A stretch of 64,000 nt of DNA from Gordonia terrae (GTDB taxonomy: Bacteria; Actinomycetota; Actinomycetes; Mycobacteriales; Mycobacteriaceae), in the NCBI RefSeq assembly GCF_001698225.1, contig NZ_CP016594.1, positions 1,860,001 through 1,924,000 on the forward strand. Reading direction: 5' to 3'. The notes under the pieces are model-generated. The model searched no databases. It saw only the letters and a list, made by a program, of their open reading frames with translations, and had not been told where the DNA came from. The translations under genes and the position numbers were made by a program. Position 1 is the first letter of the stretch. Every line of letters begins with the position of its first letter. Of this stretch, positions 37,137 through 51,919 are shown piece by piece.

Positions 37137-37583
37137 TTGCGATTATTAGACGATCTCGACGAACAGGTACTCGCCTGCCTCACCCGTGATGCCCGGGCCA
37201 CCTACCAGCAGATCGGGGAGCGGATCGGACTGTCCGCTCCCGCCGTCAAACGGCGCGTCGACCGACTGGTTGCCGACGGGGTCATCCGGGGTTTCACCGC
37301 CGTCGTCGACCCCCAGGCGATGCAGTGGACCACCGAGGCCTACGTGCTCGTGTACTGCCGGGGCAACATCTCGCCCGAACAGCTCGAAGCCGCCTGGGAC
37401 CCCATCCCCGAGGTCGTGAGCGCCGCGACCGTGACCGGTCAGGCCGATGCCATCCTGCGCGTCATGGCCCGCGACGTACGGCACCTCGAGCAGGCGCTCG
37501 AACGCATCCGGCGGGCGGGCCCGGTGGATCGGTCGGAGTCCATCCTCGTGCTCAGCGAGCTGATCGACCGGGGACACCCGTGA
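37137..37583 (+). CDS. Lrp/AsnC-family transcriptional regulator
   Basis: This 148-residue regulator has an N-terminal helix-turn-helix (LDDLDEQVLACLTRDARATYQQIGERIGL...VKRRVDRL; about residues 5-50) and a C-terminal RAM effector domain (VTGQADAILRVMARDVRHLEQ). TTG 37137 is chosen as start because a strong GAGGAGG lies 6 nt before it and the family begins there; the frame is open upstream but the preceding codons look non-coding. It is divergent from rocD, so it is probably its ornithine- or arginine-responsive regulator. Confidence 0.87.
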   Translation: MRLLDDLDEQVLACLTRDARATYQQIGERIGLSAPAVKRRVDRLVADGVIRGFTAVVDPQAMQWTTEAYVLVYCRGNISPEQLEAAWDPIPEVVSAATVTGQADAILRVMARDVRHLEQALERIRRAGPVDRSESILVLSELIDRGHP

Positions 37584-37608
37584 GACCGGGAACGTGAAAC
37601 GCCTGTGC

Positions 37609-37614
37609 TAGTGT
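37609..37614 (+). promoter_or_regulatory. Candidate -10 element for the aro leader
   Basis: TAGTGT lies 7 nt before the leader-peptide GTG at 37622, with no ribosome site for that GTG. A leaderless start on the leader peptide itself is the simplest model. Confidence 0.5.
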
Positions 37615-37621
37615 GGTCGCC

Positions 37622-37690
37622 GTGATCAGCACCGTGCGCGCGTATTGGCGCTTTATCGAGGCTCCGGGTGGGGCCACGATGATGCGTTGA
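37622..37690 (+). CDS. Attenuator leader peptide with a Tyr-Trp-Arg-Phe control segment
   Basis: This is a 22-residue peptide reading MISTVRAYWRFIEAPGGA then TMMR. Codons 8, 9 and 11 are TAT (Tyr), TGG (Trp) and TTT (Phe). TAT and TTT are rare codons in this GC-rich genome, which would strengthen ribosome stalling. It precedes a stem-loop series and the DAHP synthase gene. A ribosome-mediated attenuator with an aromatic-rich leader peptide (aroR) has been described before a DAHP synthase gene in Corynebacterium glutamicum; this looks like an analogous element covering all three aromatic amino acids. Confidence 0.75.
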   Translation: MISTVRAYWRFIEAPGGATMMR

Positions 37691-37746
37691 TCTGACGCGC
37701 GTACGACACACCCGGAGCCCGAGCAGCGACCAGACGGTCGCTGCTC
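37660..37746 (+). promoter_or_regulatory. Transcription attenuator of the DAHP synthase gene
   Basis: There are two stems. GGCTCCGGGTG (37660-37670, inside the leader peptide just after the aromatic codons) pairs perfectly with CACCCGGAGCC (37709-37719). Directly after it, GAGCAGCGACC (37721-37731) and GGTCGCTGCTC (37736-37746) form an 11-bp hairpin with a 4-nt loop, followed by TTGTCATTT, resembling a terminator. A ribosome stalled at Tyr-Trp-Phe would reach into the first stem. The precise antiterminator pairing is not resolved by eye. Confidence 0.7.
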
Positions 37747-37831
37747 TTGTCATTTGAGCGGGGCTCCGACCACACCCAGGGCATGCCTCGTCACCACATC
37801 GACACGGGCATGACCTCGAAAGGCACACAAC

Positions 37832-38920
37832 GTGACCACCTTGCCGGACCTCCCGATCCGATCCGACGACAACGCCGAATCGACCTCCGACCGCCGGATC
37901 CGGGCCTTCCGTCCGATCCCCTCGCCCGACACCGTCCGCAGCGAACTGCCGCTGTCCGCACGACGCGCCGTCGCCGTCCAGCGCGACCGGGACGAGATCG
38001 CCGACATCCTCGCCGGGCGGGACGACCGCCTGCTCGTCATCGTCGGACCCTGCTCTGTCCACGACCCGATCGCGGCCATCGACTACGCACGACGCCTCGC
38101 GCCGCTGGCCGATGCCTACGCCGAGCGTCTGAAGATCGTCATGCGCGTCTACTTCGAGAAGCCGCGCACCACGATCGGGTGGAAGGGCCTGATCAACGAC
38201 CCCGGGATGGACAACACCTTCGACGTCGAGCGTGGTCTGCGCACCGCCCGGTCGCTGCTGCTCGACATCATCGACCTCGGTCTGCCCGTCGGCTGCGAGT
38301 TCCTCGAGCCGACCAGCCCGCAGTACATCGCCGACGCGGTGGCGTGGGGTGCCATCGGCGCCCGTACCACCGAGTCCCAGGTCCATCGTCAGCTGGCGTC
38401 GGGGCTGTCGATGCCGATCGGATTCAAGAACGGCACCGACGGCAATGTCCAGGTCGCCATCGACGGCGTGAAAGCCGCTGCGGCCGAACATGTCTTCTTC
38501 GGAGTCGACGACTTCGGCAATGGCGCCGTGGTGGAGACCGCGGGCAATGAGGACTGCCACATCATCCTGCGCGGCGGCACGCGTGGCCCCAACTTCGACG
38601 CGGAGTCGGTGTCGGCGGCGGCCGAGGCGCTCGCCGCGGCCGGGTTGCCGGCGCGGGTCATGATCGACTGCTCGCACGCCAACTCCGGCAAGGATCATGT
38701 CCGCCAGGCGGAGGTCGCCACCGAGATCGCCACCCGCCTCCGGGCGGCCCGCGAGGCCGGTGAGCCGTCGACCGTCAGCGGCGTCATGCTGGAGAGCTTC
38801 CTCGAGCCCGGCGCGCAGTCGACCGAGGCCACCCCGCTGGTCTACGGCAAGTCCGTCACCGACAAGTGCATGGGCTGGGAGGCCAGCGCTCAGGTGCTGG
38901 CGGCGCTGGCGCGGGGCTGA
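37832..38920 (+). CDS. aroG: 3-Deoxy-7-phosphoheptulonate synthase, class I (AroG-type)
   Basis: This 362-residue enzyme condenses PEP and erythrose-4-phosphate, the first step of aromatic biosynthesis. Class I motifs are VIVGPCSVHDPIAAI, MRVYFEKPRTTIGWKGLINDP, GCEFLEPTSPQYIAD (metal Glu), IGFKNGTDGN and MIDCSHANSGKD (His), as in E. coli AroF/G/H. Mycobacteria mainly use the class II enzyme, so this is a second, type-I isoform with likely Phe/Tyr-type allostery; that part is inferred. GTG 37832 follows AAAGG. Expression is probably controlled by the attenuator immediately upstream. Confidence 0.94.
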   Translation: MTTLPDLPIRSDDNAESTSDRRIRAFRPIPSPDTVRSELPLSARRAVAVQRDRDEIADILAGRDDRLLVIVGPCSVHDPIAAIDYARRLAPLADAYAERLKIVMRVYFEKPRTTIGWKGLINDPGMDNTFDVERGLRTARSLLLDIIDLGLPVGCEFLEPTSPQYIADAVAWGAIGARTTESQVHRQLASGLSMPIGFKNGTDGNVQVAIDGVKAAAAEHVFFGVDDFGNGAVVETAGNEDCHIILRGGTRGPNFDAESVSAAAEALAAAGLPARVMIDCSHANSGKDHVRQAEVATEIATRLRAAREAGEPSTVSGVMLESFLEPGAQSTEATPLVYGKSVTDKCMGWEASAQVLAALARG

Positions 38921-51052: not shown

Positions 51053-51919
51053 ATGAACGCCCTCACTGAAGACGACCTGATCATCGCACTCGAGAAGGCT
51101 CTTCCCGAGATCGCGGAAGACCACCAGTCGGCTGCGAGCCCCTGGAATCCGCACGACTGGGTGCCGTGGGACGACGGACGCAACTTCGGGTTCCTCGGCG
51201 GTTCGGACTTCGACCCGTCGGAGGCCTTCCTGTCCGACGAGGCGCGCGCCGGGCTCCTCGCGCTCCTGCTGACCAAGGACAACCTGCCGTCGTATCACCG
51301 GGTGCTGGCCAAGCACTTCCCGGCGTTCTCCGACTGGCGGCAGCTCGTGGGCGTGTGGACCGCCGAGGACAACCGGCACGCCATCGTGCTGCGCGACTAC
51401 CTCGTCGTCCGGCGCGCCATCGATCCGGTGGACGCCGAGGAGCGTCGCCGCATCCACGTCACGCAGGGGTACCGGCAGATCCCGGAGCAGGTCGACCCGC
51501 TCGGCCCGCTCGACGTGCTCGCGCTGATGGCCGTGCACGAGAACCAGTGCGTGCACTTCATCAAGCGAATGACTGCGGTTGCCGGCGACGAGGCACTCGT
51601 CGAGATCCTGACGAAGATCGCCAATGACGACCAGGGGCAGGCAACCACCTTCGGCGCGTTCCTCAACGCCGGGATCATCGCCGACCAGGACGCCACCGTC
51701 CTCGCCATCGACAGCGCGCTGGCCCTCGACGAGCCCATCGGCCACGACATCGCCGATTTCGACACCGAGCGCGCTCTCATCGCCGACTACGAGGACGATG
51801 ACGTGAAGGCGGCCATCGCCGCGGCACTGGCCGACGCGGTCAAGCTCGACACCGTCTCGGGACTCGGCACGGAGGCGGAGGCCGCGCGCACCCGCATCCT
51901 CGCGCGCGCCGGCCGCTGA
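51053..51919 (+). CDS. desA2: Acyl-ACP desaturase DesA2-type
   Basis: This 288-residue ferritin-fold protein matches mycobacterial DesA2 (275 residues) and plant stearoyl-ACP desaturases. GVWTAEDNRHAIVLRDYLV gives the first E..H pair and VHENQCVHFIKRM the helix with a further Glu. At the position of the second (D/E)Exx H motif the sequence reads ANDDQGQATTFG, so the expected histidine is replaced by Gln. Either this subgroup uses an altered di-iron site or the protein is not an active desaturase. Collinear with Rv1094, downstream of glyA; a strong terminator follows. Confidence 0.9.
   Translation: MNALTEDDLIIALEKALPEIAEDHQSAASPWNPHDWVPWDDGRNFGFLGGSDFDPSEAFLSDEARAGLLALLLTKDNLPSYHRVLAKHFPAFSDWRQLVGVWTAEDNRHAIVLRDYLVVRRAIDPVDAEERRRIHVTQGYRQIPEQVDPLGPLDVLALMAVHENQCVHFIKRMTAVAGDEALVEILTKIANDDQGQATTFGAFLNAGIIADQDATVLAIDSALALDEPIGHDIADFDTERALIADYEDDDVKAAIAAALADAVKLDTVSGLGTEAEAARTRILARAGR

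Follow-up and report, generated by a model that had tools for sequence, protein, structure and literature searches.

A probable aromatic leader-peptide attenuator, likely leaderless and related to Corynebacterium glutamicum aroR, in front of the class I DAHP synthase gene of Gordonia terrae

DAHP synthase is the gate to all aromatic amino acid synthesis. In the stretch of Gordonia terrae DNA analysed here (64,000 nucleotides, hereafter the window), 248 bases separate the gene of an Lrp/AsnC-type regulator (end 37583) from a class I DAHP synthase gene (start 37832). These bases hold, in this order, a -10 box, a leader ORF, an antiterminator-like stem (AT), a hairpin (H) with a U-rich tail, a further pairing region (region 4), the sequence GAAAGG and the gene (Table 1). 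Is this region an attenuator, which amino acids does it sense, and how do its helices pass the signal on to the gene? A preliminary description of the same DNA had proposed an aromatic leader-peptide attenuator before the enzyme gene, and this proposal is supported by conservation, by the TIGR00034 match of the gene product and by clusters of aromatic codons. A short ORF with clustered end-product codons stands before a pathway gene, and mutually exclusive helices (AT, the protector hairpin P and a helix between regions 3 and 4, called 3:4) lie downstream of the codons. We regard it as likely that the region is a ribosome-mediated attenuator of the class I DAHP synthase gene, related to aroR of C. 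glutamicum.

Table 1. Features of the region between the regulator gene and the class I DAHP synthase gene, in window coordinates
Feature	Coordinates	Strand	Evidence
Extended -10 promoter element, TG + C + TAGTGT	37606..37614	+	TAnnnT spacing conservation
Leader ORF, 22 codons, GTG...TGA, likely leaderless	37622..37690	+	YWRF codons kept in 69 aligned sequences
Regulatory codons TAT-TGG-CGC-TTT (Tyr, Trp, Arg, Phe)	37643..37654	+	TAT and TGG in 59/59 same-genus genomes
Protector hairpin P (region 1:2), inside the ORF	37648..37687	+	Pairing in alignment A1, fold probabilities
Region 2, 5' arm of antiterminator-like stem AT	37660..37670	+	Perfect 11-bp pairing to 37709-37719
Region 3, 3' arm of AT, also used by the 3:4 helix	37709..37719	+	Alignment pairing, shuffle tests
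11-bp hairpin H, with a U-rich tail after it	37721..37746	+	Covariation; formed in all modelled states
U-rich tail TTGTCATTT	37747..37755	+	T enrichment in 59 genomes
Region 4, pairs with 37713-37720 around H (3:4 helix), excludes AT	37761..37768	+	Fold probabilities, shuffles
GAAAGG, probable Shine-Dalgarno sequence of DAHP synthase	37818..37823	+	Conserved in the upstream alignment
Class I DAHP synthase gene (aroF/aroG type)	37832..38920	+	TIGR00034, PF00793

The downstream gene is well assigned, its product matching TIGR00034 at 497.9 bits (cut-off 173.2) and also PF00793. The genome encodes a second DAHP synthase, of class II (PF01474, 627.6 bits), outside the window at 3482595-3483878 on the minus strand; a whole-genome search with a covariance model (R1) placed no leader near it.

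The leader peptide, read directly from 37622-37690, is MISTVRAYWRFIEAPGGATMMR. The frame and its Tyr-Trp-Arg-Phe codons had been pointed out before, and a base-by-base reading confirmed the coordinates, with TAT at 37643-45, TGG at 37646-48, CGC at 37649-51 and TTT at 37652-54. Codon choice in such leaders is distinctive. Across 34 long window ORFs, 14% of the Tyr codons are TAT and 2.5% of those for Phe are TTT; in 145 leaders, a set consisting only of loci in which a leader had been found, TAT accounts for 150 of 157 Tyr codons and TTT for 155 of 199 Phe codons, and 142 of the leaders contain Phe, Trp and Tyr together. Since TTT belongs to the P stem, structure may be what holds it. TAT lies in none of the helices described here, and its choice therefore looks like selection for a slowly read codon.

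The geometry of the promoter points to leaderless translation. The box TAGTGT (37609-37614), preceded by TGTGC, lies 7 nt before the leader GTG, and the suggestion that the leader itself may begin the RNA had been based on this spacing, which is confirmed in the window and kept in 58 of 59 Gordonia genomes (6 nt in the remaining one). A generic sigma-70 scan found no promoter at the leader locus; the box that is present is of the TAnnnT type. All 145 leaders have a TAnnnT box 6-8 nt ahead of an in-frame ATG or GTG, with 4.8 expected from shuffles. With the usual -10 spacing, transcription would begin on the start codon or beside it. Given this constancy across leaders, the message is likely translated leaderless, the RNA starting at or next to the GTG.

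How widely is this arrangement shared? A leader with YWRF precedes the gene in 59 of 59 Gordonia genomes, and beyond the aromatic residues APG is conserved in nearly all of these leaders and KR in most. One of these genomes (L099) matches Gordonia sp. OPL2 (L002) without a difference over 270 bases of the region. Class I DAHP synthase occurs in 93 of 111 genomes of the family and in 26 of its 31 genera, and each of these 26 genera has an aromatic leader at one or more loci. Ten genomes were rechecked, and in the eight family genomes with no match at E<=1e-60 PF00793 likewise found no class I enzyme. The motif differs among clades (YWRF, YFWF, YYWF, WRFYF, SYRWF, WYAYF, WYQRF). A cluster of three aromatic residues in five was found at 90 of 128 loci, proteobacterial loci included, with 10.4 expected from shuffles; four of the 128 had short upstream stretches, and the 90 probably include chance frames (e.g. 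L024, L081, L190-L192 and L197). In a sample of 48 loci from the order (L142-L189, two of them Gordonia loci already counted), the leader was found at 38 by the strict rule and at two more (L149, L150) under a relaxed rule, and was absent from L181 and L183-L189, which include second paralogs and members of the distant f16 group. Of the 15 loci sampled from the phylum (L190-L204), 2 had a clear leader, L198 and L200, the latter being the same gene as L178.

The covariance model found one element in the 5.7 Mb genome, at the DAHP synthase gene; a weak second match (E 0.0087) is the palindromic H read on the other strand, and further copies of the leader in the genome are thus ruled out by this search. 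Among 296 genomes of the phylum R1 gave four matches at E<=0.001, all of them immediately 5' of a DAHP synthase gene, in a search that used stricter filters and with a model that does not reach known carriers of the YFWF type (e.g. G079). A known Rfam element was sought in 37580-37860, and Rfam 15, whose families include T-box and trp leader, gave no match there at E<=1 and none at gathering score.

P folds the ORF on itself from the Trp/Arg codons to the last codon, pairing 37648-37658 with 37677-37687 (T52/T83 mismatched in the window) and 37660-37665 with 37670-37675, its upper part occurring in two registers when read by eye. In alignment A1, 89.0% of its cells are paired against 39.9-53.7% when the arms are slid, with changes on both sides at one pair only; its pair probability in RNA free of ribosomes is 0.72-1.0, depending on RNA length. 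The perfect 11-bp stem that had been noticed after the aromatic codons is indeed present, 37660-37670 with 37709-37719, and is called AT here. Its duplex reaches p<=0.05 against shuffles in 58 of 59 Gordonia genomes and beats at least 196 of 200 shuffles in all 25 representatives, which were picked by hand from leaders already seen and are not a blind sample. Matched partners in these hand-picked representatives average -28.7 kcal/mol, mismatched ones -21.6. AT pairing reaches 94.3% in the 69 aligned leaders, where both sides have changed at 1 of 11 pairs; in 38 more diverse leaders this is so at 3 of 11.

The terminator-like hairpin at 37721-37746 is likewise as first described. Its 11-bp arms (37721-37731 and 37736-37746) enclose a 4-nt loop and are followed by the tail TTGTCATTTG; a terminator scan also finds it, as the sole such site in 37500-37900 (0.1 expected in shuffles). 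H is 100% paired in the 69 aligned leaders; 6 of its 11 pairs have changed on both sides there, and 8 of 11 in the 38 diverse leaders, among which the both-side-change pairs and cells of AT and H exceed all 500 shuffles. On these alignments H covaries strongly and AT modestly. The preliminary description had proposed conservation of the stems and the aromatic codons in relatives as a check; both are conserved, and the contrary outcome, no conservation, did not occur. The 12 nt after H average 47% T, against 10% in the rest of the downstream 5' region (59 genomes), and the tail criterion of the terminator scan is passed in 38 of 59 genomes and missed in 21.

AT ends 0-2 nt before H in all 59 genomes and 0-3 nt before it in 24 of the 25 hand-picked representatives (5 nt in L011). 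The automatic hairpin finder lost seven loci and several representatives, so the hairpin arms of the 25 were also chosen by hand; those of L007, L012 and L017 entered the scoring as just 7 pairs and those of L011 as 11 of 13, which shifts their tails and region 4 a few bases out of place. The last helix, 3:4, joins region 3 to region 4 around H. It is significant in 33 of 59 Gordonia genomes and beats at least 190 of 200 shuffles in 15 of the 25 hand-picked representatives, averaging -21.2 kcal/mol for matched and -18.3 for mismatched partners; by columns it is 72.9% paired with zero both-side changes, partly owing to its shifting register. Of P, AT and 3:4, it is the weakest supported. No U-rich tail follows the 3:4 helix in the window.

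Which of these structures exclude one another? One could take the 11-bp stem and the 37721-37746 hairpin for alternatives, a reading that the modelling contradicts: the two are adjacent, and H forms with or without the stem. Once the window RNA extends past H, its probability is 0.98-1.0 in each modelled state, and in the 59 genomes, modelled in ten states with RNA ending either 30 nt after H or at the gene, it exceeds 0.5 in all genomes and all states. AT as a competitor for an arm of H was also rejected by pairing tests, since upstream pairing of the H 5' arm is no better than in shuffles in 24 of 25 representatives (in the exception, L153, 3 of 100 shuffles were as good). A downstream partner for the 3' arm was rejected in the same way, being no better than shuffles in 24 of 25 (exception L134, 3 of 100). 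AT competes instead with P inside the ORF and with the 3:4 helix (37713-37720/37761-37768), the actual competitors, which were missing from the earlier reading.

The modelled behaviour of the window follows the position of the ribosome. In RNA ending after region 4, P is at 0.9-1.0 and 3:4 at 0.99 with no ribosome, 3:4 reaches 1.0 with a ribosome on the stop codon, and AT rises to 0.99, with 3:4 at 0.01, when the ribosome stalls on Tyr or Trp; a Phe stall gives AT 0.41 and 3:4 0.88. When the RNA runs on as far as the gene, AT is 0.66 and 3:4 0.33 on a Tyr stall, and AT is 1.0 on a Trp stall; RNA that begins at 37655 and reaches the gene has 3:4 and not AT in its fold of lowest energy. Across the 59 genomes AT exceeds 0.5 in 47 or 50 with a Tyr stall and in 49 or 53 with a Trp stall, depending on RNA length, in 0 or 1 with a Phe stall, in none with the ribosome on the stop codon and in 3 or 9 with no ribosome. 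A Tyr or Trp stall thus fails to favour AT in 6-12 of the 59; nor does it favour AT in L012, where longer RNA forms AT, and mostly not in L123. Since H is formed in every state and AT changes with the stall, the codons would choose between AT and its competitors rather than between AT and H. The helix that changes with state is therefore 3:4 and not the U-tailed H, and simple exclusion does not explain how AT would lead to read-through.

The same modelling bears on the amino acids that are sensed. The preliminary description held that one element senses Tyr, Trp and Phe together. The co-occurrence of the three in nearly all leaders agrees with this, but the modelling leaves Phe mostly outside the switching register. 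In the window the codon starts lie 17 nt (Tyr), 14 nt (Trp) and 8 nt (Phe) before AT, and in the 59 genomes TAT lies at 15-21 nt and the last TTT at 6-9 nt. With ribosome footprint edges from +10 to +16, AT in the window stays at 0.96-1.0 on a Tyr stall and at 0.63-1.0 on a Trp stall, and a Phe stall gives 0-0.63. We infer that Tyr and Trp probably matter more than Phe at this leader. In two probable Corynebacterium leaders the first Phe lies 13-14 nt and Tyr 10-11 nt before AT, and the available text of one report has Phe limitation, not Tyr availability, acting in C. glutamicum (PMC11802643). The spacing agrees with such a response, and this agreement is suggestive only, because a Tyr stall in these leaders still gives AT 0.73-0.87 at +12 to +13.

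Taken together, the codons, the leaderless geometry, the conserved P, AT and H, and the mutual exclusion of AT with P and with 3:4 are established by computation, and the following course of events can be proposed. Transcription would start at or next to the leader GTG, and a ribosome would begin on the leaderless message. When charged Tyr- or Trp-tRNA is short, it would stop on TAT or TGG, break the lower part of P and free region 2, and AT could then form flush against H; 3:4 could not form, and the gene would be on. When the codons are read fast, or when no ribosome starts, region 2 would be covered or locked in P, region 3 would pair with region 4 around H, and the gene would be off. The off state would consist in premature termination at H and its U-rich tail. 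The enrichment of T after H argues that H is a real terminator, and with H formed in all states AT would then have to work by abutting H, or 3:4 would have to matter downstream. On this model DAHP synthase expression probably rises when charged aromatic tRNA is short.

The strongest rival keeps the leader and the switch between 2:3 and 3:4 and lets them act after transcription or through Rho. The 3:4 helix around H would lower translation initiation or expose the untranslated RNA to Rho or RNases, and H would not be a switched intrinsic terminator. The stability of H in all states fits this, as does the fact that 3:4 forms only once RNA polymerase has cleared the U-rich tail; the tails of the YFWF clades are seldom U-rich (5, 4, 3, 8, 2, 4, 1, 1 and 3 T of 12 at nine hairpins), and actinobacterial leaders with no clear Rho-independent terminator are reported in the available text of PMC8079986. 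However, the strong enrichment of T directly after H in the Gordonia genomes (47% against 10%) speaks for termination there, and region 4 lies about 50 nt before GAAAGG, so that 3:4 does not directly cover it. We judge this rival unlikely.

A second rival sees a conserved RNA and ORF with no sensing of amino acids, the peptide acting in trans or the structure stabilising the mRNA. The peptide is indeed conserved beyond its aromatic residues (APG, KR), and a trans-acting leader peptide, peTrpL, is on record in the available text of PMC7298713. Yet the additional conservation coincides with the codons that build P and AT, and the order of the aromatic residues varies by clade while Phe, Trp and Tyr keep together in 142 of 145 leaders, which fits sensing better; such a reading appears very improbable. 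A short ORF and inverted repeats might also have come together by chance in GC-rich DNA, and one could cite for this the roughly 10 of 128 upstream regions expected to show an aromatic cluster. This reading is refuted by conservation in 59 of 59 genomes and 26 of 26 genera, by the 90 of 128 loci against 10.4 and by covariation above all 500 shuffles, and its probability is negligible.

For the ribosome-mediated attenuator a broader generalization can be formulated. There may be an actinobacterial family of leaderless three-amino-acid attenuators that share a flush antiterminator and a register code; the whole of this, taken jointly, is doubtful, and we put it forward tentatively. If the first rule were true, AT would share no bases with H and end at its base, and read-through would come about because AT sterically hinders closure at the foot of H inside the RNA exit channel. 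If the second were true, sensing would be confined to aromatic codons that lie at least about 13 nt before AT, and the order of Tyr, Trp and Phe would retune the controlling amino acid from clade to clade, with Tyr and Trp acting here and Phe, as reported, in Corynebacterium. Such a broad leader family offers many natural variants in codon order and hairpin type, a falsifiable rule for which amino acid each variant senses, a clean case for how an antiterminator works next to and not over a terminator hairpin, and a possible handle for strain engineering in Gordonia, Rhodococcus and their relatives.

Several further observations concern other leaders. In the YFWF clades (among them Rhodococcus, Nocardia and Amycolatopsis; loci L032, L034, L043, L211, L216, L222, L223 and L231) part of region 2 can pair with the hairpin CGAGCCGG..CCGGCTCG itself, and AT, read by eye, can therefore overlap the hairpin there. 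U-rich tails are few in these clades, although L220 has seven T in a row. They seem to have the same kind of leader with a different expression platform. The hairpin survey of these and other family loci found no hairpin in L207, L208 and L228, and its assignments for L221 and L224 look wrong (gaps 9 and 13). In Proteobacteria, where 400 nt upstream were examined, aromatic leaders also stand before class I DAHP synthase genes (L022, L026, L028, L030, L038, L046, L047, L056, L062, L071, L078 and L079), for example YFWFSSASGGREI in Polaromonas, FYFWYY in Xanthomonas and SYFWYF in Bradyrhizobium; L022, L028 and L071 have a hairpin and then a plain U-run, and YFWFS..GG of Comamonadaceae resembles the Rhodococcus/Nocardia leader YFWFSRPAPGG. 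L003 and L212 carry a second short ORF, MTDRGRCFFFVRAPGRPC and MTDHGRCFFYVRAPGRPC respectively, within about 80 nt of the DAHP synthase gene and overlapping the hairpin and U-rich tail; this ORF may simply result from the T-richness of the tail, or it may be another aromatic leader. In the window, pairing may be possible between the tail at 37747-37755, which many relatives have as CTTTTG or CTTTCG, and the conserved CGAAAG of the probable ribosome-binding site (37818-37823). Elsewhere in the window, at 51368-51435 on the minus strand, the mycobacterial sRNA family ASdes is matched (RF01781, 51.1 bits; gathering score 40).

How does the Gordonia leader relate to systems already described? The literature search, with most subscription papers outside its reach, found no report of a Gordonia leader or of a wider actinobacterial family, and a 2005 survey of Actinobacteria, in its available text, reports that conserved RNA structures are lacking before the Phe and Tyr operons (PMC1262725). 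In Streptomyces lividans, leaders such as trpL, leuL and ilvL are leaderless too and some lack a canonical terminator; the eight listed in 2021 include, in the available part of that report, no aro leader (PMC8079986). Our Streptomyces locus L012 has RWYWRY before its DAHP synthase gene. More distant is uORFC-13-1 upstream of Acholeplasma aroF, a short ORF with at least one Phe codon near an apparent terminator stem; compared by its description in the available text, it differs in belonging to another phylum and in having a ribosome-binding site described (PMC8632094). The 'fast' attenuator of C. glutamicum ilvBNC has three hairpins in tandem, an anti-antiterminator, an antiterminator and a terminator, of which the latter two are described, in the text available, as meeting at a short three-base GCC boundary with no overlap of whole arms (PMC11857589). 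This boundary is a precedent for an antiterminator that adjoins its terminator, as AT does in the window. The ilvBNC leader differs in its branched-chain codons, and in the window AT ends 0-2 nt short of H and the shared arm lies in the outer 3:4 helix.

The closest counterpart is the aroR leader peptide and aroF attenuator of C. glutamicum, reportedly described by Neshat et al. in 2014. There, according to the available texts, a leader with Phe-Tyr-Phe precedes aroF (PMC4046766, PMC11802643), and stalling is reported to raise aroF transcription (PMC11802643, PMC4046766, PMC7356990). The window shares with C. glutamicum aroF an aromatic leader peptide directly upstream of a class I DAHP synthase gene and differs in coding Tyr-Trp-Arg-Phe instead of Phe-Tyr-Phe. 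The preliminary description had named aroR as the known relative, and two loci of a probable Corynebacterium genus (g178; L207 and L208) support this relation, as their WRFYF contains the reported F-Y-F. These loci, which are proxies and not C. glutamicum itself, keep the same order of promoter, leader, AT and hairpin as the window, with AT right before the hairpin. The Gordonia leader is thus apparently a real and uncatalogued relative of the aroR attenuator, one that is predicted to work like aroR and that is not aroR itself.
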